A stretch of 64,000 nucleotides of DNA, taken from Methanobrevibacter millerae. GTDB taxonomy: Archaea > Methanobacteriota > Methanobacteria > Methanobacteriales > Methanobacteriaceae. This document shows, in pieces, positions 24,122-40,638 of this stretch. The stretch's first letter is position 1. Each line of letters opens with the position of its first letter. The position numbers and the translations under genes are program-made. Under the pieces are notes generated by a model, which saw nothing but the letters and a program-made list of their open reading frames with translations, did no database searches and had not been told where the DNA came from. The stretch is taken from contig SUTF01000001.1 in NCBI GenBank assembly GCA_015063005.1, positions 62,001 through 126,000 on the forward strand. The letters are read 5' to 3'.

Positions 24122-27100
24122 TTATTTTTTTCTTCTTAAAGTTCCAACAGCCAAGGTAAATAATGCTAGCAATACCATTATTAATGGATTACCAGTAGCT
24201 GGAGTTACATCAACAGCTTTTGTAGCTGGAACTGGAGGTTCAACATCAGGAACGTCTTCAACTACAATATAGTCAGAGTCATTGTTGTTGGTCATGTTAG
24301 GATCATATGTATCACTGACTACTCTTGCCTCATTGACTATTGTACCTGTAGCATTTACCAATGTTTGAATTATTAAAATTGCAACATCACCATTTTGCAT
24401 GTCACCAATAGTCCAAACACCAGTATTAGGGTCAAATGAACCAGTTGTTAAATCATATGCAACCAAAATTAATGCATTGGATAAAACATCACTAGCTCTT
24501 GTGTTAATTGCAGTATCAGGACCTAAATTAGTAACTTTAATACTCCAAGTTACATATTCTCCATCAATAGCTATTACAACTTTTTCTATGGATAAATCCG
24601 CTGAAGGACTTACATTAGTAGTGTTGTTAGCATTGTTGTTATCCGAATTAGGATCATAAGTACTGCTGTTAACAACAGCAACATTTAAGATTTCCTGATT
24701 GGAGATATTTACCAAAGTTTTAATAGACAAAGTAGCTGTCTTATTATAAGCTAAATTACCAATAGTCCAAACTCCTGTTGCCGCATCATAGCTGCCTATT
24801 GAAGCCTCACTGGATTGGAAAACAAGACCAGACGGTAAGTTATCAACAACAATGACATTTTCACTGTCAGATGGACCACTATTAGTTACGATTATAGTCC
24901 ATGTAATCACATCACCGAAATTAGGATTTGAATCGCTTACAAGTTTTACAACTGATAAATCAGCAACAGGATTAACGACAGTTGTGTTGTTTGCTGTCTT
25001 ATTTTCTGATTCAGTAGAACCTACAGTTACGATATTGGTAAAGTTACCTACTTCAGTAGTGTTGAAGCTTACAATTAAGGTAACTGCCTCATGTACATTT
25101 AAGACTTTATTTAAAGTCCAGATGTTTTTACCGTTTACAACAGCATGTGTCCAATCATTGTTTTTAACATATGAATCATAAGTCAAACCATCATAAGAAG
25201 TTTCTTCAATAACCACATTATGTAAAGCAACTTCGCCAGTGTTTCTAACAATAATTTCAAATGAAGTTTGGTTCCCAACAGAAACGATAGGAGTTAAAGC
25301 AATTTTTTGAACATCCAATTTAGGCTCTGAAACCTTAGTTGTATTGTTAGTGGTTTTGTTTTCAGTTTCATCTGAACCTGCAACCACGACATTGGTAAAG
25401 TTACCTTTACCTGTAGTGTTGAACACAACAAAGAATCCTACAATTTCATTAACAGCCAAATCAGAGTTTAAAGTCCATCTGTGTTTACCGTCAACAACAG
25501 AATGAGTCCACAATACATTATCCAAGTATGAATCATATATCAAACCATCATAAGAAGACTCCTCAACAAACACATTAGTCAATACAGCCTCACCGACATT
25601 TCTAACAACAATCTCGAAAATAACCTGATCACCAACCAAAACAACAGGAGTCAAAGTAATCTTCTCAACATCCAATTTGCCTTCAACGACAGTAGTGGTA
25701 TTATTAGTAGTCTTATTCTCAGTCTTATCTGAACCTGCAACAACAACATTCGTGAAATTACCAGAGCGGGTAGTGTTGAATGTTACGGTGAATCTATTTT
25801 CACCGCCAATAGCTAAAACACCATTGTATTTGAAAATATTACCTTCCTTATTCCAATTAACGCCATTAAAGCTGTCGTAAACTAAACCGTCGAAAGACTT
25901 TTCTTCAACAAATACGTCATCCAAAGCACAGTCACCAGTGTTTCTAACGATAATTTCAAAGACAACTTGTTCACCCAAATGAGCAATAGGAGTTACAGTA
26001 ATCTTTTCAACAGTCAAATTAGGACTGTAAACTGTAGTAGTATTGTTAGTGGTCTTATTTTCAGTCTTATTAGAACCTGAAACAATCACATTAGTGAAAT
26101 TACCAGACCTAGTAGTATTAAACGCAACAGTAAAACTTGAAACATCACCAGCAGCTAAAACACCACCATAAGTGAAAATATTATCCGCATAATTCCAGCC
26201 ATCACCATCGAAACTATCATAAACTAAACCGTCAATAACACTTTCCCTAACAAACACACCATCCAAATCACAATCACCAGTATTTCTAACAACAATCTCA
26301 AAGACAACCTGCTCACCCAAATAAGCAACAGGAGTCAAAGTGGTTTTTGTTACATTCAATTGAGGATTGTGAGGATTGGTAGTGTTGTTAGCAATATTAT
26401 TTGATTCGTTAGAATCAGGAGTGGTACTGTTAACGACTGCTACATTTATAACCGTGACATTGCTTATATTAACCAAAGTAATGATGTTTAAAATAGCTGT
26501 TTGAGTATTGATTAAATCTCCGATAGTCCAAATACCACTTGTTGCATTATAATTTCCATCAGATTCTTTGAATATTAATCCATTAGGTAATTTATCTTCA
26601 ACATAAACATTTTTTGCAGTTGCTGGGCCATTGTTTGTTACGATTATTGTCCAAACAATTTCTTCACCATATTTAGGATTTTTATTTGAAACTAATTTAA
26701 CTACAGATAAGTCAGCACCAACCACATTAGTTGTATTGTTTGCTGATTTATTTTCTGAGCCGCTACTGTTAGCTACAACAACATTAGTGAAATTACCTAT
26801 TTTAGTCGTATTGAATATCACGAAGAAATTTGCGGTTTTTTTAGCCTCCAAAGTTGAATTATATGTCCAGCTCAAACCATCATTCTTAATCCATTTATAA
26901 GTATTGTCATACCAGCCAGCATAGGTTAAACCTTCAAATTCTTTTTCATATACTGTAAGATCATTTAATTCAATGTTTCCATAGTTGTTTACGACAATTT
27001 CAAATATTACCTGTTCGCCAGCGACTACTGTATTATTGACAGTAATCTTTTTGACATCAAATTCAGGTTTTACAACATCAATACTATCATTAGAAGTCTT

Positions 27101-30100
27101 GTTTGGAATAACATCACTGGTTAATGTCACGAAATTATTAAAGTGACCGACCTTAGTAGTATTGAATGCTACAAAGAAACCAGTAACAACGCCAGGAGAT
27201 AAAAATGAAGTAAATGTCCAACTATGCTTACCAGTTTGATTCCAGTAACCAGTATCATCATAAATTCTGTCGAATACAAGACCATCATCAAAGTTCTCAT
27301 GAACAGTGAAATTACGTAATGTTACATCACCAGTATTTCTGATAATAATTTCAAAGTAAGCAATATCACCTAAAGGAATGATTCTATTAACTGTAAGCTT
27401 TTCAATAGTGTAGTCTGGTTTTACTACATCAACAGTATCGTTTGAAGTCTTGTTAGGAATATCATCACCTGTTAAAGTCACGACATTAGTAAAGTGACCG
27501 ACCTTGGTAGTATTGAATGTTACAAAGAAACCAGTGACAACACCCGGAGATAAATAAGAATTAAATGTCCAACTGTGATTACCCGTCTTACTCCACAAAC
27601 CAGTATCATCATACCAGTTATTGTAAACAAGCCCATCATCAAAGAAAGTTTCATGAACTGTGAAATTACGTAGGGTTGTTTCACCCGTGTTTCTTATAAT
27701 AATATCAAAGTATGCACCTTCACCTAAAGTAACAACCTTATTAACAGTGACCTTTTCAATAGTGTAATCAGGTTTTAAAACTGTTACTGTATCGTTTGCA
27801 GTTTTGTTAGGAACCTCATTTGAATTGACTACAATCACATTTGTAAAATTACCTGCTTTAGTGGTATTGAATACTACAAAGAATCCAACATATTCATTAG
27901 GCTCTAAACTGGTTTTTAAAGACCAGGTTAAATCCCTGTTTTTAGTCCATGATCCTGTGTCATCATACCATCCTGCATAAGTTAAGCCTTCAAAGGATTT
28001 CTCTTCAACGACAACATTAGTCAAGGAAACCTTTCCAGGATTTCTAACAAGAATCTCAAAGGTAACTTGATTTCCAAGAGTAACTACATCATTTATAGCT
28101 AATTTACCCACTTCCAATTTTGGTTCTACAACTTCTACAGTGTCATTAGTCGTTTTATTTTCTGTTTCATTTGATGTTGCAGTAATGACATTGACCAACT
28201 CACCGGTTTTATTGGTTTCAAAAATTATATAGAAACTAGTAGTCTCTCCTTTATAGAGTGTAGCGTTATATGTGAATGTCATGTCACCATTATAAATCCA
28301 TGTTTCTTCAATATCATAGAAATTAATGAATTTTAAACCGTCATAGGATGTTTCATGAATGGTTACATTATGTAGCCTTTTATCACCAATATTTCGAACA
28401 ACTATTTCAAATGTAACACGGTCTCCAACTGTTACCAATTTTTTTAAAGCGATTTTTTCAACTGACAAGTTAGGATTAGTTGCATTTTCTTCCGGATCAA
28501 CTGGAGGTTTTACATAAACTTCAGTAGTGTTGTTTGCAGTTTTATTTTCAACTTTGTCTGCACCGGCAGTAACGGTATTTGTCCAATTGCCCACTTCAGT
28601 TGCATTGAATACTACAGTTAATGTCGCAACCTGATTTGGTTTTAAAGATGAAACAAATTTCCATCCAGGATTAGTGTCATTGAAATTATATGACCATAAT
28701 CCATTATCGACAAATGTTTTATAAGTCAAGTTTTGATAATCTGTCTCTTCAATGAATAGGCCAGTTAAATCAACCTTACCGACATTTTTTACAATAATCT
28801 GGAACCTAGTTAAGTTATTTAAAGGAACAATAGGATCCAAAGATATTTTCTCAACAGTGAAATCCGGCGCTACAACAGTAGTATTGTTTTTAGCCGTTTT
28901 GTTTTCAGTTGTTTTATTAGATGTTACAACAACCACATTAGTGAAATTACCAACCTTAGTTGCATTAAACACTACAAAGAAACCATGAGTTTGCTGAGTG
29001 GCAAATACACCATCATATACCCAAGAATAATTACCCCGGTATTTCCAATGAGTACCCAAACCATAAGCATGATCAAATACAAGTTCATCAGGAATCTCCT
29101 CTTTGACAACGACATTAGTTAAATCCACAACACCAGTATTTGTAACAACAATCTCAAAGGTAACTTGATCTCCAATAGCTACAAGAGAATTTAATGAAAT
29201 CTTTTCAACAGTGAATTCAGGTTTAACGACTTTTGTAGTATTGTTAGTGGTTTTATTATCCGCATTTTCACTGCCTGCAACAATCACATTAGTGAAATTA
29301 CCTGTCTTAGTGGTGTTGAAGTAAACAGTAAAACCATGAGTCACACCCGGAGCGAATGAAAAACCATAAGTCCATCTGAGTTTACCGTCAACTTCAGACT
29401 CATTCCAAAATCCAAGAGTATTAGCATGATCAAAAATCAAACCTTCATGTTCAAATTCCTCAATAAATACATTAGTCAGATTAACCAAACCAGTATTTCT
29501 CACAATAAGCTCAAAAATAACTTGATCACCTAAAATAACTTGTGGAGTTATGGTAATTTTTTCTACACTAAGTTCTGGTTTAACAACTTTTGTAGTATTG
29601 TTTGCAGTTTTATTATCAGCATTGTCCCCGCCTGCAACAACCACATTAGTAAAATTGCCAACCTCAGTGGTATTGAATACGACAGTGAACCCGTGAGTCA
29701 CGCCAGGAGCAACAGGGAAATCATAAGTCCATCTAGTCTTATTATTAACAGTGGATTCAATCCATAAAAACTCAGTATTAGCATGATCAAAAATCAAACC
29801 TTCATAATCAAATTCATCAACAAACACGTTAGTCACATTTACCAAACCAGTATTTTTGACAATAATCTCAAAAATAACTTGGTCTCCTAAGCTAACCAAA
29901 GGAGTTATGGTGACTTTTTCAACACTAATTTCAGGTTTTACAACAGTTGTGTCATTTTTAGCAGTTTTGTTTTCTGTTTCATCACTGCCAGCAACAACAA
30001 CATTGGTAAAGGTACCGGTTTTGTTTGTATTAAATACGACAGTTAAAATAGTGACTCCATCTATATCCAATTGGTCTTTTAAAGTCCATCTATTTTTACC

Positions 30101-33100
30101 ATTTACAATAGCATGATTCCAGCGAGATTGATTTTGGGCATAGGCAAATTCCAAGCCGTCATATGAAAATTCTTCAATGAAAACATTGTTCAAAGTAGTT
30201 AAACCAGTGTTTCTAACAACAATCTGGAATTTTACCTGTTCGCCAAGAGCAACTAATGGAGTGATTGAGATTTTATTTACAATGAAGTTGGATTCAAGAA
30301 CTTTTGTATCATTTGAAGCATTGTTGTTGCTCATGTTGGAATCCGGTGTGCTTGAGTTTGCAAATACATTATTAACGATTGTGGTATTGTCTTCAATTAT
30401 TTTTGTTAAAATATTCAAAGTTGCTGTGGCTCCTTTTGCCAAATCACCAATATCCCATCTTCCAGTAGCTAAATCATATTTTCCATTTGAATCGTCACTT
30501 ACATATGAAATTCCTGATGGAAGAACATCAATAGCATATGCATCAACTGCAATATCCGGACCGTTGTTGGTAACTTTAATTGTCCATGTTATGGTATCGC
30601 CAACTACAGATACTTTTTGGGAAACTAATTTGATTACACTTAAATCTGAAAGAGTATTGGATTTTGTAGTGTTATTAGCAATGTTGTTGGTTTCGTTTGG
30701 ATCATAAACACTGCTGTTAACGGTAGCTACATTCAATATAGTAGTGTTTGTAATGTTCACGATAGTTCTGATTTGTAAAACTTTTGTATCACCAACATTT
30801 AACTCACCAATATACCAAATGCCCGTAGTTTCATCATAATTTCCATCAGCACCATTGAAGATTAATCCATTTGGCAATTTATCGACAGCATAAGCATCAT
30901 TGACATTGCTTGTACCCTTATTGGTGACTTTGAGAATCCAGACAATTTCATCCCCCAAGTTAGGAGTCTTATTTGAAACCATCTTTTCAATAGCTAAATC
31001 GGCAAGAGGCAATATTTCAAAGTATGTCATGTTAGTGATGAATTTATATAAACCGTCTTCAGCGTGAGTTACGTTTACAGAATAGTTTCCTGGAAGCAGA
31101 CCTTTTTCAGATACTGTCAAGTTACCTAAAATACCTGTTTTGCCAGTGATGTTAATTACAACTTTTCCGGTTTCAAGGTGAGTGACTATTACAGTAATGT
31201 TTTGATTGTCTTCACGAGAATCCTGATAAACAAGAGTACCTCCCTCACTTTCCTCAACACTAGGCTTTGGATTAACAATATTAGGACCGGAATTAGTTCT
31301 ATTATTAACAGAAAGTTCATATGTTACATTCTTAAAGAAAATATTATTTGGACTGCCGTCATTATAGATTGCATTAATAATATTGTCCCCTCCTTTATGG
31401 GTAACCTCAATAGTTACATTAGCTTCAGGATCATAATAGAAACGCTTATCATTTGTAATTCCAGTAATAAGATAACTCCATGCCTGATTTTCAATGAAAG
31501 TGTCATCTTCAATTGTTAAATTTTGTCCTCGGTTATATATCGCAGAACCGTTACGTGCGATATTATTTTCGAAATTTGAATAGGAAATATTGGAATTGTT
31601 TCCTTGAATATATACGGCCCCACCTAAACCCTGATTAAGGTCGTCCGTAGAAGCAATAGCTGTATTTGAAGTGAAGTTAGAATTTGTAATTGTCAGATTA
31701 TCCCCTTGAGAGTGAATAGCACCACCATGATAAACAGCACTATTGTTTTTAAATACAGAATTATTGATTAAAGTATTATCTCCTTGCACATAAACACCGG
31801 CACCACCGTTTGATGCAGTGTTGTTTTCAAAAGTTGAATTTTCGATTATCGTATTGTTTCCTATAATATAAACTGTACCTCTTGAACATTCATGATTATA
31901 GAATCCAGTATTTATAACGGATGAATTTTCACCGTGGACATAAATAGCTGAACCATTTCCTTCAGTTGCATAGTTATCCCAAAAAGTACAGTTTATTGCC
32001 TTGTTGTTATTTCCTGTAATGTGTACTGCTCCACCTTCTTCAGTACCGGTATTGTTTCTGAAAGTACAATTCAGTATTGTATTATAATGACCTTCAGGGA
32101 TTCCATCTAAACCATGGTCAATACCAGCGAGCATGTAAGCTGCCCCTTGTTTAGCAGTGTTGTTTTCAAATAAACAGTTTTCAACGACCAAATAATTTTG
32201 GCTGGAACCTATAGCTCCTCCTCTTTCAGTTGCAGTATTATTGATGAAAGTACAGTTTATAATGTTGCTGTGGTAATCTTCAGTGATAGCATCATTACCG
32301 TGAACATAGATTGCTCCACCAATACCTGCCCTACAATTTATAAAATTAGAATTAAATACATCCACACGATTTCCATACTCCCCACCAATACAGATAGCAC
32401 CGGAGTGTCTGTTAGTTGTACAGTTTACAAAGTTACAATTATCTAAGGTTGAATGATATGCTACTACCATAGCACCATATTCATAATTATTTTCATCCTC
32501 TTCAATCAAAGAATGACATTCTGTAAAATTAACATCATTCAAATTACATCCTCTTATAACAAAACCTGCAACATTAAATGAAAAATTTTCAAATTTGACA
32601 TGGGTCAAGTTACAGTTTTGAATAATCATACCATATGCATAATCTTCCCTATAATTTTTAAAGGTTATATTTTCTAAAACACAGTTATAAAATTCACTAC
32701 GCATATCCAAAGTGATAGGAACTACGTTTCCTGCATCAATAACCCCATTTTTGAGAGTTAAATGACCTGCCCTTACTCTTGAATTTCCACCTATTGGAAC
32801 AGCAATTATAGTTTTTCCTTCCAAATCAATAATATCTCCGTCTTGAGCATTATTTATTGCACTGCGAAGATCAGCAAAATAATTACCCTCAACAGTAATT
32901 ATTTTTCCTGATTGAAGAACATTCCCTTCATCTAAACTTGATCCTAAAACATTTTCTCCAACGGTCTTATCAAAATAAACCTCATTTTCCGAAATTGAAA
33001 TCTGGCTTTTTTCATTGTCACTATCATTTGAATAATCAATTTCCTGACTTACTCCATCATCAATAATGGTATTATCTTCAACGATAGCGACTTCAGAAGA

Positions 33101-33217
33101 TATTTCTAAAATATCTGTCGAATTATCATCAACGATTTCTTCTGCAGAAACCGACCCTATTGAGAAAAAAATTATTATCATCAAAGATGATATGATAATT
33201 TTCATTTTTTTATTCAT
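24122..33217 (-). CDS. Giant adhesin-like surface protein: beta-helix plus 19 DUF11 repeats
   Basis: 3031 residues. A signal peptide (about 1-25) is followed by a right-handed parallel beta-helix (about 140-570; repeated GGAIYVHG / NSTFENNTA-type coils), an Ig-like segment (about 650-735), then 19 DUF11-type repeats (about 740-2985) with the recurring VEKIT-x-TP...GDQVIFEI pattern. It ends TPATGNP, a hydrophobic helix and RRKK (residues 3005-3031). N-x-S/T sites are abundant. It is probably displayed on the pseudomurein wall to bind partners. The start ATG at 33217 is set by a G-rich site (GTGGGGG) before it. A TATA-like element is at 33254-33265. Repeats differ enough to be old, unlike those of the second adhesin. 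Confidence 0.85.
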   Translation of the reverse strand: MNKKMKIIISSLMIIIFFSIGSVSAEEIVDDNSTDILEISSEVAIVEDNTIIDDGVSQEIDYSNDSDNEKSQISISENEVYFDKTVGENVLGSSLDEGNVLQSGKIITVEGNYFADLRSAINNAQDGDIIDLEGKTIIAVPIGGNSRVRAGHLTLKNGVIDAGNVVPITLDMRSEFYNCVLENITFKNYREDYAYGMIIQNCNLTHVKFENFSFNVAGFVIRGCNLNDVNFTECHSLIEEDENNYEYGAMVVAYHSTLDNCNFVNCTTNRHSGAICIGGEYGNRVDVFNSNFINCRAGIGGAIYVHGNDAITEDYHSNIINCTFINNTATERGGAIGSSQNYLVVENCLFENNTAKQGAAYMLAGIDHGLDGIPEGHYNTILNCTFRNNTGTEEGGAVHITGNNNKAINCTFWDNYATEGNGSAIYVHGENSSVINTGFYNHECSRGTVYIIGNNTIIENSTFENNTASNGGAGVYVQGDNTLINNSVFKNNSAVYHGGAIHSQGDNLTITNSNFTSNTAIASTDDLNQGLGGAVYIQGNNSNISYSNFENNIARNGSAIYNRGQNLTIEDDTFIENQAWSYLITGITNDKRFYYDPEANVTIEVTHKGGDNIINAIYNDGSPNNIFFKNVTYELSVNNRTNSGPNIVNPKPSVEESEGGTLVYQDSREDNQNITVIVTHLETGKVVINITGKTGILGNLTVSEKGLLPGNYSVNVTHAEDGLYKFITNMTYFEILPLADLAIEKMVSNKTPNLGDEIVWILKVTNKGTSNVNDAYAVDKLPNGLIFNGADGNYDETTGIWYIGELNVGDTKVLQIRTIVNITNTTILNVATVNSSVYDPNETNNIANNTTKSNTLSDLSVIKLVSQKVSVVGDTITWTIKVTNNGPDIAVDAYAIDVLPSGISYVSDDSNGKYDLATGRWDIGDLAKGATATLNILTKIIEDNTTIVNNVFANSSTPDSNMSNNNASNDTKVLESNFIVNKISITPLVALGEQVKFQIVVRNTGLTTLNNVFIEEFSYDGLEFAYAQNQSRWNHAIVNGKNRWTLKDQLDIDGVTILTVVFNTNKTGTFTNVVVAGSDETENKTAKNDTTVVKPEISVEKVTITPLVSLGDQVIFEIIVKNTGLVNVTNVFVDEFDYEGLIFDHANTEFLWIESTVNNKTRWTYDFPVAPGVTHGFTVVFNTTEVGNFTNVVVAGGDNADNKTANNTTKVVKPELSVEKITITPQVILGDQVIFELIVRNTGLVNLTNVFIEEFEHEGLIFDHANTLGFWNESEVDGKLRWTYGFSFAPGVTHGFTVYFNTTKTGNFTNVIVAGSENADNKTTNNTTKVVKPEFTVEKISLNSLVAIGDQVTFEIVVTNTGVVDLTNVVVKEEIPDELVFDHAYGLGTHWKYRGNYSWVYDGVFATQQTHGFFVVFNATKVGNFTNVVVVTSNKTTENKTAKNNTTVVAPDFTVEKISLDPIVPLNNLTRFQIIVKNVGKVDLTGLFIEETDYQNLTYKTFVDNGLWSYNFNDTNPGWKFVSSLKPNQVATLTVVFNATEVGNWTNTVTAGADKVENKTANNTTEVYVKPPVDPEENATNPNLSVEKIALKKLVTVGDRVTFEIVVRNIGDKRLHNVTIHETSYDGLKFINFYDIEETWIYNGDMTFTYNATLYKGETTSFYIIFETNKTGELVNVITATSNETENKTTNDTVEVVEPKLEVGKLAINDVVTLGNQVTFEILVRNPGKVSLTNVVVEEKSFEGLTYAGWYDDTGSWTKNRDLTWSLKTSLEPNEYVGFFVVFNTTKAGNFTNVIVVNSNEVPNKTANDTVTVLKPDYTIEKVTVNKVVTLGEGAYFDIIIRNTGETTLRNFTVHETFFDDGLVYNNWYDDTGLWSKTGNHSWTFNSYLSPGVVTGFFVTFNTTKVGHFTNVVTLTGDDIPNKTSNDTVDVVKPDYTIEKLTVNRIIPLGDIAYFEIIIRNTGDVTLRNFTVHENFDDGLVFDRIYDDTGYWNQTGKHSWTFTSFLSPGVVTGFFVAFNTTKVGHFNNFVTLTSDVIPNKTSNDSIDVVKPEFDVKKITVNNTVVAGEQVIFEIVVNNYGNIELNDLTVYEKEFEGLTYAGWYDNTYKWIKNDGLSWTYNSTLEAKKTANFFVIFNTTKIGNFTNVVVANSSGSENKSANNTTNVVGADLSVVKLVSNKNPKYGEEIVWTIIVTNNGPATAKNVYVEDKLPNGLIFKESDGNYNATSGIWTIGDLINTQTAILNIITLVNISNVTVINVAVVNSTTPDSNESNNIANNTTNPHNPQLNVTKTTLTPVAYLGEQVVFEIVVRNTGDCDLDGVFVRESVIDGLVYDSFDGDGWNYADNIFTYGGVLAAGDVSSFTVAFNTTRSGNFTNVIVSGSNKTENKTTNNTTTVYSPNLTVEKITVTPIAHLGEQVVFEIIVRNTGDCALDDVFVEEKSFDGLVYDSFNGVNWNKEGNIFKYNGVLAIGGENRFTVTFNTTRSGNFTNVVVAGSDKTENKTTNNTTTVVEGKLDVEKITLTPVVLVGDQVIFEIVVRNVGEAVLTNVFVEESSYDGLIYDSYLDNVLWTHSVVDGKHRWTLNSDLAVNEIVGFFVVFNTTGKGNFTNVVVAGSDETENKTTNNTTKVSEPKLDVQKIALTPIVSVGNQTSFEIIVRNTGEVALHNVVIEETSYDGLTYDSYVKNNDWTHAVVNGKNIWTLNKVLNVHEAVTLIVSFNTTEVGNFTNIVTVGSTESENKTANNTTVVNPVADLSVVKLVSDSNPNFGDVITWTIIVTNSGPSDSENVIVVDNLPSGLVFQSSEASIGSYDAATGVWTIGNLAYNKTATLSIKTLVNISNQEILNVAVVNSSTYDPNSDNNNANNTTNVSPSADLSIEKVVIAIDGEYVTWSIKVTNLGPDTAINTRASDVLSNALILVAYDLTTGSFDPNTGVWTIGDMQNGDVAILIIQTLVNATGTIVNEARVVSDTYDPNMTNNNDSDYIVVEDVPDVEPPVPATKAVDVTPATGNPLIMVLLALFTLAVGTLRRKK

Positions 33218-33254
33218 TTTATACCCCCACAATCACTTTTCAATAAATTAGACA

Positions 33255-33982: not shown

Positions 33983-36900
33983 TTATTTTTTTCTTCTTAA
34001 AGTTCCAGCAGCTAATACGAACAATGCAAGTAATACCATGACTAATGGGTTACCGGTAGCTGGAGTTACGTCAACTGGCTCAACATTTTCTTTTACAGGT
34101 TGTTGAGGAGTTTCAGGAACATCACTGACAACTACAGTTTCATTATCATAGTTATTGCTCATGTTAGGATCGAATGTGTCACTGGTTACGTTAGCTTCGT
34201 TGGTGATTTCACCAGTAGTCAATACAATAGTTTGCATTATCATTACTGCTTCTTCACCGTTTTCCATGTCCCCAATAGTCCATACACCAGTGTTTACATC
34301 ATATAATCCTTTTGAAGCATATGAGTTAATGTATTGTAAAGTGTTTGGCAATACATCGATTACTCTTGCATTTACTGCTTTATCCGGACCGTTGTTTACA
34401 ACATAAAGTCCCCAAGTAACTTTATTTCCATCAATAGCATAAACTACTTTAGTAATAGCTAAATCAGCCATATAGGTCTTGTTATCCTCAGGAGTTGTTT
34501 TATTTTCATCAGGAACTGGTCTGTCAATTACAGTAGTTATATTGTTCGCTGGTATGTCTTGGGTCTTATCGCTTGAAGCGAAAACAACATTTGTGAAAGT
34601 TCCAGCTTTATTTGTGTTGAATACAACATAGAAGCTTAAATATTCTCCTGCATATAATGGAGTGTTTAAAGTCCAGGATAAATCATTGTTTTTAGTCCAT
34701 AAATTATTATTATCAATGAAGGAATCATATATGAGACCGTCAAATGAGTTTTCACGGACAGTTACATCATTTAAGACAACTTTTCCTGCATTGTGAACAA
34801 CAATTTCAAATTTAACTTTTTCTCCGACATAGACTGTTCTGTTTACTGTGATTTTTTGAACTTCCAATTTAGGTTGCAATACTTCTACGGTATCGTTAGC
34901 TGTTTTGTTTGGAATTTCAGTGGAATCTGCAACTACAACATTTACGAAGTTACCTGTTGTGGTAGTATTGAATACAACAAAGAATCCTGCATATTCACCA
35001 ACACGTAACGGAGTGTTTAAAGTCCAGGATAAACCACTGTTTTTAGTCCATAAACCAGAATTATCAATGAATGAATCATATACAAGTCCAGCGAAAGAAG
35101 TTTCACGAACTACAACATTGTTTAAGTCTGTTTGACCTAAGTTGTGGACAACAATTTCAAACATTACCTGTTCTCCGACTAAAACTGATCTGTTGATAGT
35201 GATTTTTTCAACAGCGAAATCAGGTTTAATTACTTTTACAGTATCATTAGCTGATTTTTTATCGGTTTCATTGGAATCAACAGATACAATATTGGTAAAG
35301 TCTCCAGGATTGGTGGTTTTAAATACTACATAGAATGAAGCAATTTCACCAACATATAATGGAGAATTCATAGTCCATGTTAAACCGCTGTTTTTAGACC
35401 ACAAACCAGTGTTGTCATACCAGCTGTCATAAGTTAAACCAGTGAATGAATCTTCACTTACAGTTACATCATGCAATACAGTATCACCGGTGTTTGTAAC
35501 AATAATTTCAAATACAGCATTACTTCCGGCAATTACAACTTTATGTAATGCAATTTTTTCAATGTTGATATTTGGATTTTTGGAAGGATCCTCTTCAGGA
35601 GTAGGTTTAGTATTATTGTAAACGATAGTAGTGTTGTTTGCAACTTTATTGTCAGTTTCATCTGAGGATACTGTCACAATGTTTGTGAAGTTACCTACAG
35701 CAACAGTGTTGAAGTTAACAATCAATGTAACCATTTCATTTACATTTAAGACTCTGTTTAAAGTCCATATATTCTTACCGTTTGCTACTGAATGAGTCCA
35801 TAATCCGTTATTTACAAATGAATGGTAAACCAATCCATCGTATGAAGTTTCTTCAAGAACGACATTGTGTAATGGGATTTCTCCAATGTTTTTAACAAGG
35901 ATTTCAAATGAAGTCTGATTTCCAACATGGACAACAGGAGTCAAAGTAATCTTTTGAACATCAATATTTCCTTTGAATACGTCAACGGTATCGTTGTCAG
36001 TTTTGTTAGGGGTTTCGTCTGAGCCAGCTACAATAACATTGACAAATTTACCGGTATTGGTAGTGTTGAATACTACAAAGAATCCTGCATATTCACCAGC
36101 GTATAAAGGAGTGTTTAATTTCCATGACAAGTCGCTGTTTTTGGTCCATAATCCAGTGTGGTCTATGAATGAATCAAATTTAAGACCATCATAAGACTCT
36201 TCACGGACAACAACATTGTTTAAGGTCACTTTTCCGGTATTTTCAACAATAATTTCAAATGTTACTTGGTCACCTACCATAACTGATTTGTTGATGGATA
36301 TTTTTTGAACATCCATTTCAGGTTTAATTACTTCAACAGTATCATTAGCTGATTTTTTATCGGTTTCATTAGAGTCAACTGAAACAATGTTTGTGTATTT
36401 TCCTGGAGTGGTAGTGTTGAATACTACATAGAATGAGGCCATTTCACCAACATACAATGGAGTGTTCAAAGTCCAGGTTAACTCATTATTAGACCATAAT
36501 CCAGTATTATCAAAGAAAGTTGTGTATTCTAAACCAACAAATGAATCTTCGGTTACGGTAACATCATGCAATACAACTTCACCAGTGTTAGTAACTATAA
36601 TTTCAAAGATAGCTTGCTGTCCAACAATCACAACATCATTTAAAGCTATTTTTTCAATGTTTATGTTAGGGTTTTTAGTCGTATTGGATTCAGGTTCCGG
36701 AGTAGTCTTATTGTAAACATTGGTAGTGTTGTTTGCAATCTTATTTTCAGTCTCGGTAGAACCTACAGTTACGATATTAGTAAAGTTACCCACTTCAACA
36801 GTGTTGAAGTTAACAATCAAGTTAACAGCTTCTCTAACGTTTAAGACTTTGTTTAAAGTCCATATATTCTTACCGTTTGCTACTGAATGAGTCCATAATC

Positions 36901-39679
36901 CGTTATTTACAAATGAATCGTAAACCAATCCATCATATGAAGTTTCTTCGAGAACTACATTGTGAAGAGCAACTTCACCAGTGTTTCTAACAACAATTTC
37001 AAATGAAGTTTGGTTTCCAACAGGAACGATAGGAGTCAAAGTAATCTTTTGAACATCCAATTTAGGTTCAACAACCTTAGTAGTGTTGTTGGTAGTCTTG
37101 TTTTCTGTTTCATCAGATCCGGCAACAACAACATTGGTAAAGTTACCTTTCTGGGTAGTGTTGAATACTACAAACAATCCAACGACTTCATTTACAGCTA
37201 AATTAGTGTTCAAGGTCCATGTATTTTTACCGTTTGCAATTGAATGAGTCCAGTATCCGTTGTCAATGAACTTTTCATATTTTAATCCAGCATAGGATGT
37301 TTCTTCAACAAAGACATTGGTTAAAGTAGCTTCTCCAATATTTTTAACGATAATTTCGAAAGTAACTTGGTCTCCAACTAAGACAACAGGATTAATGGTA
37401 ATTTTTCTTACATCCAATTTAGGTTCAACAACGGTAGTGGTGTTGTTGGTAGTCTTGTTTTCAGTTTTGTCAGATCCTGCAACAACAACATTGGTAAATT
37501 TACCTTTCTGGGTAGTGTTGAATGTTACAATTAATGTTTCAACTTCATTAACTGCCAATACTTTGTTTAATGTCCATACATTTTGTTGACCATTATACTT
37601 CCATAATCCATTATCCTCAAAGGAAGCATAAGTCAAACCTTCATAAGACAACTCTTTAACAAATACATTTTCTAAAGCAACATCACCAGTGTTTTTAACA
37701 ATGATTTCGAATTTAACTTGGTCTCCAACTGAAACTTTTGGAGTAATAGTGACTTTTTGAACATCTAATTTAGGCTCCAATACAGTAGTATTGTTGTGAG
37801 TGGTTTTGTTTTCAGTTTCATCAGAACCTGCAACAATAACATTTGTAAAGTTACCTTTTCTAGTAGTGTTGAATACAATGAAGAATCCTTTTACTTCATT
37901 TACAGCCAAATTGCCGTTTAATGTCCATCTGTTTTTATTATTGGTAATTGAATGAGTCCAATATCCATTATCAATGAACTTTTCATATTTTAAACCAGCA
38001 TAGGATGTCTCTTCAACAAAGACGTTAGATAACTCAATATCTCCAGTGTTTCTAACAACGATTTCAAAAGTAACCTGATCTCCAACTAAAACCTTAGGAG
38101 TAATGGTGATCTTTTGAACATCGAATTTACCATCTACAACAGTAGTGGTATTATTAGTTGTTTTGTTATCACTTTCATCTGAGCCTGCAATAATAACATT
38201 GGTAAAGTTACCTTTATGGGTAGTATTGAATACAATAAAGAATCCCATGACTTCATTTACAGCTAAATTGCTGTTTAAAGTCCATCTGTTTTTACCGTTG
38301 GTAACTGAATGAGTCCAATATCCATTATCTAATACTTTTTCAAATTTTAAACCAGCATAGGATGTCTCTTCAACAAAGACATTAGACAAATCAATATTGC
38401 CTGTGTTTCTAACAACGATTTCAAAAGTAACTTGATCTCCAACTAAAACCTTAGGAGTAACGGTAATCTTTTGAACATCCAAATTACCCTTTAAGACAGT
38501 AGTAGTATTATTGGCCTTTTTACTATCTGTCTCATCGGAATCTGCAACTACACAGTTAACAAAAGTACCATTCCTATGAGTGTTGAATGCAATAGTAAAG
38601 CTAGCAGATTCGCCAACTCTCAAAACATCATTATAATAGAAAGTATTGCCATTCCTTCTCCATTTGGTTTTATCATTATAATCGGAAAAAGACAAACCGT
38701 CAGGAATCTGTTCCTCAACAAATACATTATTCAAATTAACGTCACCAGTGTTTCTAACAGTTATCAGGAACAGGGTTTGCTCTCCAACTTTAACATTAGG
38801 AGTTAAAGACTTCTTGTCTACTTCCATACCTGGATTTTTAGGAGTAGGTGGAATTTCTTTTATGATTTTCTTAAATCCGAATAATGTTTGATATGTGGAA
38901 GATGACTTAAAAGCTAAAAATTCGTATTTTACCTCATGAGTATCATCGAGTTTATAGGTTATGCCCTCTTCAGGAATCCATTCCCCGTTGTTATGTCTGT
39001 TAATAATATCATAATAGGCATTTTTTAATATTGGATCTCCATCCAAATCTTGCATACAATATTTATTTGTATCATATTGAGTTAAATACCATATTAACAT
39101 TTGAGTACGTGAGAACGAACCCGCAGCAATTCTCCAAAAACGTACTTTTTCTTGGAATTCTGGCCTATCCGCATAATGAATTACCGCTAATCTTAATTTA
39201 TTATCAACACGAGCTCCCGTTTCAACGTGTGTTAATATGTATTGCTGCTCTGTAATATATGGAGTACCAGATGTTGGAAAAGTACCTAACCTTTTCGCAC
39301 AAAAAGCAGTAAATCCATTAGACATGGAAACATAGTCTGCTCCCCTTCCTTGGGTCACAACAGATTCTCCAAAAGATAAAACTTCCGTATTATCTTTGTT
39401 TGATGTTTTTAAAGTAACAATACCATCTTCAATTATTTCCTCGTTAGATAAGCTCAACGTTTCATTATCACTTATACTTTCTTCACTCGATAAACTCAGC
39501 GTTTGATTATTTTCAATACTTTCTTCGTAAGATAAGCTTAATGCTTCATCTCCTGCCACATAACTTTCTCCAACACTTAAGACAGCAGATTCGGTTATGT
39601 TTTCACTAGCGGAAACTATGCCTAAGCTTAATGATAAAGTTAATAATAAAATTAATCCATATAAAATCTTTTTGTTCAT
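33983..39679 (-). CDS. Adhesin with candidate thioester domain, 13 DUF11 repeats and TPATG tail
   Basis: 1898 residues. Signal peptide (1-25, cleavage near SASEN); a linker with three repeated LSLS-x-EES units; a domain at about 105-270 with FCAKR (Cys127) and SRTQMLIWYL (Gln193) that matches the Cys ... TQxx[IV]W pattern of Gram-positive thioester (TQXA) domains. Thirteen DUF11 repeats follow (from about 284), then TPATGNP (1872-1876), a hydrophobic helix and RRKK. Repeats 6-8 and 9-11 are a recent block duplication. ATG 39679 is chosen because GGTG precedes it and the signal peptide starts there. A covalent host- or surface-binding adhesin is inferred. Confidence 0.82.
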   Translation of the reverse strand: MNKKILYGLILLLTLSLSLGIVSASENITESAVLSVGESYVAGDEALSLSYEESIENNQTLSLSSEESISDNETLSLSNEEIIEDGIVTLKTSNKDNTEVLSFGESVVTQGRGADYVSMSNGFTAFCAKRLGTFPTSGTPYITEQQYILTHVETGARVDNKLRLAVIHYADRPEFQEKVRFWRIAAGSFSRTQMLIWYLTQYDTNKYCMQDLDGDPILKNAYYDIINRHNNGEWIPEEGITYKLDDTHEVKYEFLAFKSSSTYQTLFGFKKIIKEIPPTPKNPGMEVDKKSLTPNVKVGEQTLFLITVRNTGDVNLNNVFVEEQIPDGLSFSDYNDKTKWRRNGNTFYYNDVLRVGESASFTIAFNTHRNGTFVNCVVADSDETDSKKANNTTTVLKGNLDVQKITVTPKVLVGDQVTFEIVVRNTGNIDLSNVFVEETSYAGLKFEKVLDNGYWTHSVTNGKNRWTLNSNLAVNEVMGFFIVFNTTHKGNFTNVIIAGSDESDNKTTNNTTTVVDGKFDVQKITITPKVLVGDQVTFEIVVRNTGDIELSNVFVEETSYAGLKYEKFIDNGYWTHSITNNKNRWTLNGNLAVNEVKGFFIVFNTTRKGNFTNVIVAGSDETENKTTHNNTTVLEPKLDVQKVTITPKVSVGDQVKFEIIVKNTGDVALENVFVKELSYEGLTYASFEDNGLWKYNGQQNVWTLNKVLAVNEVETLIVTFNTTQKGKFTNVVVAGSDKTENKTTNNTTTVVEPKLDVRKITINPVVLVGDQVTFEIIVKNIGEATLTNVFVEETSYAGLKYEKFIDNGYWTHSIANGKNTWTLNTNLAVNEVVGLFVVFNTTQKGNFTNVVVAGSDETENKTTNNTTKVVEPKLDVQKITLTPIVPVGNQTSFEIVVRNTGEVALHNVVLEETSYDGLVYDSFVNNGLWTHSVANGKNIWTLNKVLNVREAVNLIVNFNTVEVGNFTNIVTVGSTETENKIANNTTNVYNKTTPEPESNTTKNPNINIEKIALNDVVIVGQQAIFEIIVTNTGEVVLHDVTVTEDSFVGLEYTTFFDNTGLWSNNELTWTLNTPLYVGEMASFYVVFNTTTPGKYTNIVSVDSNETDKKSANDTVEVIKPEMDVQKISINKSVMVGDQVTFEIIVENTGKVTLNNVVVREESYDGLKFDSFIDHTGLWTKNSDLSWKLNTPLYAGEYAGFFVVFNTTNTGKFVNVIVAGSDETPNKTDNDTVDVFKGNIDVQKITLTPVVHVGNQTSFEILVKNIGEIPLHNVVLEETSYDGLVYHSFVNNGLWTHSVANGKNIWTLNRVLNVNEMVTLIVNFNTVAVGNFTNIVTVSSDETDNKVANNTTIVYNNTKPTPEEDPSKNPNINIEKIALHKVVIAGSNAVFEIIVTNTGDTVLHDVTVSEDSFTGLTYDSWYDNTGLWSKNSGLTWTMNSPLYVGEIASFYVVFKTTNPGDFTNIVSVDSNETDKKSANDTVKVIKPDFAVEKITINRSVLVGEQVMFEIVVHNLGQTDLNNVVVRETSFAGLVYDSFIDNSGLWTKNSGLSWTLNTPLRVGEYAGFFVVFNTTTTGNFVNVVVADSTEIPNKTANDTVEVLQPKLEVQKITVNRTVYVGEKVKFEIVVHNAGKVVLNDVTVRENSFDGLIYDSFIDNNNLWTKNNDLSWTLNTPLYAGEYLSFYVVFNTNKAGTFTNVVFASSDKTQDIPANNITTVIDRPVPDENKTTPEDNKTYMADLAITKVVYAIDGNKVTWGLYVVNNGPDKAVNARVIDVLPNTLQYINSYASKGLYDVNTGVWTIGDMENGEEAVMIMQTIVLTTGEITNEANVTSDTFDPNMSNNYDNETVVVSDVPETPQQPVKENVEPVDVTPATGNPLVMVLLALFVLAAGTLRRKK

Positions 39680-39807: not shown

Positions 39808-40620
39808 TCATTCGATTGTTCTACTCGGAAAAAAGCCATACTCATAATAATTAAAATTCATGAAAATCTTCACAAAATTAGAAAATGTTTGAAAACAAGA
39901 CAATGAAAATAAGTTAAAGTTTGAAAAATTAGGGTTTAAAATATTATATATAAAACTATCTGCACTAGCAACAATTCCATCTGCACTACCAACGATTGAA
40001 TTGTCAATTGAAAATGCGAATTTGGTATGTAATTTATCATTAGATATAACTATGCTTTTTTCAACATCATGAGTCAATATATGACAATATCCGTTATAGA
40101 ATATAAGATCATCATGTATCAATGCTTTAAATTTATCTATTTTATGTTTAAATTCTGATAAACTTTCACCAAAATCAATAGTTTTAAAACTTATATTAAG
40201 TTCCATACAAATAAAAACTTCATAATCGGTTAAAAAATCTTTAAAAATATGAACTAACCCTATAGAATTTAAATTCAAACGAGTGTCGTTATCCAAAGTT
40301 TCATTTATCAAAGATTCAATATAAGTATTATTATATTGATAATTTTCAATTTCATTATAATTTTCAGGTTCGTTAATTATATAAGAATCAATATACTCTT
40401 GATTATTTTCAACTGGAGCAATCTCTTCCTCACTGATAACGCCATTTTCAACAACATCATCCATTTTTAACTCCTCTAAATCAAGCTGATTAACTTCGAC
40501 GAATTCTTGGATTTGAATTTCAATATTATCACTATTAACCGTTTCATTAATGTCACTAGCAGAAACTGCAGAGATCATGAAAAATGCCAATATTGCAATA
40601 ATCATTAATTTCTTTATCAT
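39808..40620 (-). CDS. Small secreted protein of unknown function
   Basis: 270 residues. A clear signal peptide (MIKKLMIIAILAFFMISAVSA) is followed by an Asn/Glu-rich, acidic segment with Tyr-rich parts (about 55-105) and a more globular C-terminal half with Cys residues. I did not recognise a family. The start at 40620 is set by GGTGAT 5 bases upstream; the longer ATG at 40638 lacks a site and would spoil the signal peptide. It is downstream of no other gene, and its stop is 100 bases from the adhesin start, on the same strand, so it may belong to the same surface gene set. Confidence 0.55.
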   Translation of the reverse strand: MIKKLMIIAILAFFMISAVSASDINETVNSDNIEIQIQEFVEVNQLDLEELKMDDVVENGVISEEEIAPVENNQEYIDSYIINEPENYNEIENYQYNNTYIESLINETLDNDTRLNLNSIGLVHIFKDFLTDYEVFICMELNISFKTIDFGESLSEFKHKIDKFKALIHDDLIFYNGYCHILTHDVEKSIVISNDKLHTKFAFSIDNSIVGSADGIVASADSFIYNILNPNFSNFNLFSLSCFQTFSNFVKIFMNFNYYEYGFFPSRTIE

Positions 40621-40638
40621 CCAAATCACCAAAGTCAA

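Follow-up and report, generated by a model that had tools for sequence, protein, structure and literature searches.

Covalent adhesion by internal thioesters is best described in the TIE proteins of Gram-positive bacteria (SfbI, BaTIE, TIEpLS20), in which a signal peptide is followed by a thioester domain (TED), a tandem stalk of isopeptide-type domains and an LPXTG-like tail. The bond-forming residues of a TED are the Cys of a [YFL]C-Phi-zeta motif and the Gln of a PhiQzetaPhiPhi motif in the last beta strand (PMC4450167; PMC6194298), whereas TQxxPhiW lies in a helix and its Gln and Trp are dispensable (PMC4450167, Walden 2015; PMC6194298, Miller 2018). Thioester adhesins were described in 2015 as exclusive to Gram-positive bacteria (PMC4450167). 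Archaea do encode alpha-2-macroglobulin/TEP proteins, which share Cys-Gln thioester chemistry with the adhesin proposed here but differ from it in fold: their motif, CxEQ, lies in a helical domain and has the Gln three residues after the Cys (PMC8416519). Archaea and bacteria also have CLIPPER fibrillar adhesins with DUF11 stalk repeats. In the accessible part of the 2025 survey of isopeptide domains (PMC12617251), whose models did not exceed 1,280 residues, few partner domains were detected in the archaeal DUF11 proteins. Adhesin-like proteins are numerous in methanogens and the functions of their tips are mostly unknown.

Here, we analysed a window of 64,000 nucleotides (the whole stretch of DNA studied) of the methanogen Methanobrevibacter millerae. 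It contains one TED-like domain, in the open reading frame at 33983-39679, which has tfrA (the methanogen CoM/CoB fumarate reductase) among its neighbouring genes. We consider it likely that this frame encodes an archaeal TIE fibrillar adhesin, with a Cys127-Gln264 thioester at the tip, an isopeptide-bonded stalk and a sortase-anchored tail. Its features, and the gene upstream, are the following.

33983..39679 (-), adhesin gene, 1,898 aa; ATG at 39679, frame open from 39712
39608..39679 (-), signal peptide, residues about 1-24, MNKKILYGLILLLTLSLSLGIVSAS; from sequence, cleavage site inferred
38852..39370 (-), archaeal thioester domain, residues about 104-276; from homology and alignment
39299..39301 (-), codon of Cys127, predicted thioester Cys, [YFL]C motif, FCAK; from motif and conservation
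38888..38890 (-), codon of Gln264, predicted thioester Gln, PhiQzetaPhiPhi motif, YQTLF; from alignment, motif as defined in PMC4450167
39101..39103 (-), codon of Gln193, in the TQxxPhiW helix motif (TQMLIW, 192-197), not the bond partner; from motif (PMC4450167, PMC6194298)
34130..38830 (-), stalk of 13 DUF11 (CLIPPER) domains; from Pfam, Lys/Glu/Asn triad in the first 12
33986..34066 (-), sorting tail, TPATG, membrane helix and RRKK, residues 1872-1898; from sequence
39808..40638 (-), small secreted protein, 276 aa from TTG; upstream of the TED adhesin, not a TED

A preliminary description of this DNA had listed a signal peptide, FCAKR with Cys127, VIHYAD, SRTQMLIW with Gln193, 13 DUF11 repeats and a TPATG tail, and all of these are present in the frame: FCAKR at 126-130, VIHYAD at 166, SRTQMLIW at 190-197, 13 DUF11 stretches (Pfam, E 4.9e-168) and the C-terminal tail TPATGNPLVMVLLALFVLAAGTLRRKK. 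It had overlooked Gln264, in YQTLFGFK, which is conserved together with Cys127. The other cysteines of the protein are at 208 and 376. The adjacent gene (24122-33232, -) encodes another adhesin, of 3,036 aa, with beta-helix/Chlam_PMP repeats, 19 DUF11 domains and the same tail, TPATGNP, as the TED adhesin; we found no TED in it.

Taken alone, the adhesin sequence lies at the edge of detection. PF08341 scores 14.3 bits (E 0.057) and aligns around the TQ motif only; the Pfam gathering score is 22 bits, which is a detection threshold and not a structural feature. A phmmer search of the PDB with the domain gave no match. The profile TIGR03934 (TQXA), put forward in the preliminary description as a check, does not match the domain at E<=1, and the NCBIfam TED models matched none of the family members tested. 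The fold of TEDs combines a beta-barrel with three helices; the AlphaFold2 model of the domain, built from two sequences, has a pLDDT of 36.8 and the Foldseek search with it was uninformative. Since the adhesin alone is below the Pfam cut-off, membership has to be argued from its family.

Five other genomes of the genus proved to contain relatives of the domain. When a profile of seven relatives (A1) was run at E<=10 against the 177,635 distinct sequences of the PDB, it retrieved nothing but two TEDs, 4c0z (Cpa) with E 1.6e-5 and 5a0d with E 1.3. The alignment with 4c0z spans its YCFN, TQNAIW and FQNLL motifs, and places Gln264 of YQTLF on FQNLL. With a profile of 60 relatives (A2), the top three PDB matches were 4c0z, 5a0g and 5a0d, again all TEDs. 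Comparison by hhalign with two TEDs of Ligilactobacillus salivarius and Cpa (probability 92, E 6.5e-7) brought Cys, TQxxIW and the terminal Gln (Gln264) into register, and 16 of the 139 genomes of the methanogen family contain PF08341 matches that exceed the cut-off. Sub-profiles restricted to the short group or to one long group failed to find bacterial TEDs in the PDB; it takes a diverse alignment to make the link. Conservation of the domain with an open frame in many other genomes takes it beyond chance. The homology to Gram-positive thioester domains claimed in the preliminary description is thus borne out at the level of the family, and at this level sequence comparison gives good support for placing the N-terminal domain among TEDs: it combines the [YFL]C (FCAK), PhiQzetaPhiPhi (YQTLF) and TQxxPhiW (TQMLIW) motifs with family-level profile similarity.

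The closest described domains are the class I TEDs (PF08341; Cpa 4c0z, CpTIE 5a0d/5a0g, SfbI). They have the three motifs in the same order as the adhesin and are likewise N-terminal on a stalk, but share about 17% identity over aligned columns with the archaeal TED. The predicted bonding residues are separated by 137 positions in the adhesin and by 105-144 across the family, compared with 152 in SfbI, 153 in PnTIE and 129 in CpTIE. Class II TEDs, where a beta-sandwich is inserted before the bonding Gln, have spacings of 171 and 204 (PMC6194298). The archaeal spacings leave no room for such an insertion, which makes the domain class I-like. Nor does it have the CxEQ motif of alpha-2-macroglobulin/TEP proteins: AKR comes directly after Cys127, and the conserved Gln lies 137 residues further on. 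The adhesin TED family is a new, divergent archaeal branch of known TEDs.

Which glutamine would bond with Cys127? The preliminary description proposed Gln193 of TQMLIW. Most TEDs do conserve this motif, and solved structures show it near the thioester (PMC6194298), but the bacterial TEDs that have been studied bond via the equivalent of Gln264 and can dispense with the TQ glutamine (PMC4450167, PMC6194298). Patterns of conservation point the same way. We gathered 122 TED-like frames, unselected for Cys or Gln, of which 98 have Cys127; clustering at 80% identity left 93. Among these, 70 of the frames with the Cys have Gln264 and 4 lack it, against 1 and 18 of those without the Cys (Fisher's test, which ignores shared descent, 1.8e-14). 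The corresponding figures for Gln193 are 40 and 34, against 5 and 14 (p 0.04). Hence, the 74 Cys-bearing relatives, with a median identity of 25%, have Gln at position 264 in 95% of cases and at position 193 in 54%. On the tree, Cys and Gln264 change jointly in 2-3 of five independent pairs and never oppositely, which is too few for significance; Gln193 changes in either direction relative to Cys. The invariance of Cys and Gln in A2 is no evidence, because its members were selected for holding both. The alignment with FQNLL of 4c0z points to Gln264 as the bonding residue more firmly than these counts do. A Cys127-Gln193 bond is therefore not supported, and we regard it as barely credible; the predicted bonding Gln sits in the last-strand motif. 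It follows that the distance between Cys127 and Gln193, which had been suggested as a refutation test, probes the wrong pair.

One might also accept the fold and doubt the chemistry. In methanogens the domain could bind its targets non-covalently, or hold a structural thioester that is unreactive to them. Some members that have lost both Cys and Gln persist as genes, and their retention suggests that a TED fold may be useful without the bond. Yet the near-constant company of Gln264 where the Cys is kept, in sequences so divergent, points to chemistry, because thioesters contribute no stability to the fold of bacterial TEDs (PMC4450167). We find this alternative unlikely, if the most serious of those considered. 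A role of Cys127 in a disulfide or a metal site is much harder to sustain: the adhesin has a second cysteine at 208, and six short partner-type members (four after clustering) have the Cys without the Gln, but 50 of the 70 intact domains have a single Cys and Cys208 is replaced by Tyr in the close relative L037. The transglutaminase-like and papain domains of other methanogen adhesin-like proteins (PMC11532034) raise the idea that Cys127 is the nucleophile of an enzyme crosslinking or cleaving surface proteins. Such an enzyme is at odds with the intact family, where the most frequent His is conserved in at most 34% of domains, and with the lack of similarity to such enzymes in Pfam or the PDB. 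Without a conserved His we rejected a cysteine protease or transglutaminase identity, which has next to no chance of being correct. A thioester between Cys127 and Gln264 is thus our preferred reading.

The stalk and the tail bring the adhesin close to TIE proteins. The best sequence match of the DUF11 repeats is 9ifr (E 0.013), a CLIPPER domain solved with an isopeptide bond whose bonded residues, as given in the accessible part of the survey, include Lys715 and Asn806 (PMC12617251). These align with a Lys and an Asn common to all of the first 12 repeats, and the acid of 9ifr aligns with an invariant Glu (for example, K404/E438/N494), so that 12 of the 13 repeats have bond-capable residues. 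The model of a repeat (pLDDT 94.6) resembles 9ifr, among other pilin domains, with TM-scores of 0.77/0.75. Alignment and model suggest that each DUF11 domain of the stalk is probably locked by a Lys-Asn isopeptide bond. The adhesin thus shares its stalk repeats, and their Lys/acid/Asn residues, with the CLIPPER fibrillar adhesins, and its tip is a TED where that survey, in its accessible part, rarely detects partner domains in archaeal proteins (PMC12617251).

The tail, with TPATG, a membrane helix and RRKK, is by its sequence an LPXTG-like sorting signal. Among the relatives, 65 have a C-terminus that a simple rule classes as complete, and 46 of these end in a related TG tail. Of 12 genomes sampled from the methanogen family, 10 have a sortase (PF04203); our search of the M. 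millerae genome, which is 89.5% complete, did not find one. No exosortase turned up in the 12 genomes and we set aside an archaeosortase reading. A tail of the form (A)TGNPL-membrane-KR recurs at the C-termini of TED proteins across the loci examined, which suggests that the methanogen family shares a sortase signal, one that extends past the small number of LPXTG proteins reported in 2010. The preliminary description saw in the succession of signal peptide, TED, repeats and sorting tail a mirror of Gram-positive adhesins. The isopeptide-type stalk and the TPATG tail favour this view: with the Lys/Glu/Asn triad of isopeptide-bonded CLIPPER domains present in the repeats, the architecture is that of a TIE adhesin. 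There are differences. TIE proteins have CnaB stalks whereas that of the adhesin is made of DUF11/CLIPPER (CnaA-like) domains, no ester domains were identified in the adhesin, and the wall of its host is, judging from relatives, probably pseudomurein, unlike that of Gram-positive hosts.

By analogy with bacterial homologues, we propose the following course of events. After secretion the N-terminal domain would fold, and Cys127 and Gln264 would condense spontaneously with loss of NH3 to form the internal thioester, Gln193 and Trp197 being placed in a supporting helix. A nucleophile of the target surface, most likely a lysine amine, might then attack the thioester and become covalently joined to Gln264. 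The twelve or thirteen DUF11 domains, each probably isopeptide-locked, would space the tip from the cell, and a sortase would fix the TPATG tail onto the pseudomurein wall.

In the archaeal genomes searched, such domains occur in one family and are frequent within it. Of 396 genomes from 204 genera, 76 have a match to A2; these belong to 4 genera, all of them Methanobacteriaceae, and about half of the sequenced relatives of M. millerae have domains related to the TED. The nearest named relative (L037), from a Methanobrevibacter MAG of goat ileum, is 65% identical over the domain. In long members, DUF11-like repeats usually come after the TED; short members, of about 250-480 aa, are membrane-tethered and form tandem pairs at several loci, one partner lacking Cys, Gln or both. 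Our search of the literature, which covered searchable text and not the TED labels of supplementary Figure S7 in the 2025 isopeptide survey, found no earlier report of an archaeal TED adhesin. The build of the adhesin and the spread of related domains suggest that methanogens may anchor themselves covalently to hosts or to partner cells; the preliminary description named gut tissue, bacteria or protozoa as possible targets. We are evenly divided on the broader proposition that Methanobacteriaceae hold a large and diversified family of thioester adhesins, including tandem short pairs, that fasten the cells irreversibly to host tissue or partner microbes through amide bonds. If the tips do bond covalently, this would give a concrete chemistry, with exact residues named, to the attachment of gut methanogens to their host or to hydrogen-producing partners, and a surface-exposed feature relevant to methane mitigation. 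What stands at the tip of archaeal DUF11 fibres is now a question directly testable by mass spectrometry.

Two scans of viral contigs with sub-family alignments gave no relative; a viral-contig locus from the domain scan was rejected as an integrase with a chance match (FQEKVRFW), and a match on a Priestia plasmid (E 0.7) is not a TED lead. Within the family, PF08341 exceeds its cut-off in genomes or at places missing from the matches of the archaeal profile (G064, G157, G159, G160 and G005:C41:3721-4098), possibly separate, more bacterial-like TED lineages of the same methanogens.

In the tandem pairs (L004, L013, L019, L022, L023, L024, L029), a member keeping Cys and Gln adjoins a neighbour without the Gln (usually replaced by Ser) and often without the Cys. 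Several of the Gln-less partners have a new Cys two residues past the lost Gln (KSDCLA). The genome of the adhesin itself has two more TED-like genes: one is short, with intact motifs, and cut by the contig end (L038, C15), the other lacks Cys and Gln (L039, C1). Another locus (L058, G079:C1:2815000-2834000) has two TEDs in a single frame of more than 5,600 residues. Finally, a secreted protein of about 220-276 aa lies directly upstream of every TED adhesin found that is of the same type as this one (39808-40638 (-) in the window, 1755-2417 in L037, 2935-3753 and 7596-8408 in L041). It belongs to no Pfam family, is not a TED and was seen nowhere else in the loci examined, and is a possible partner protein of the TED adhesin.
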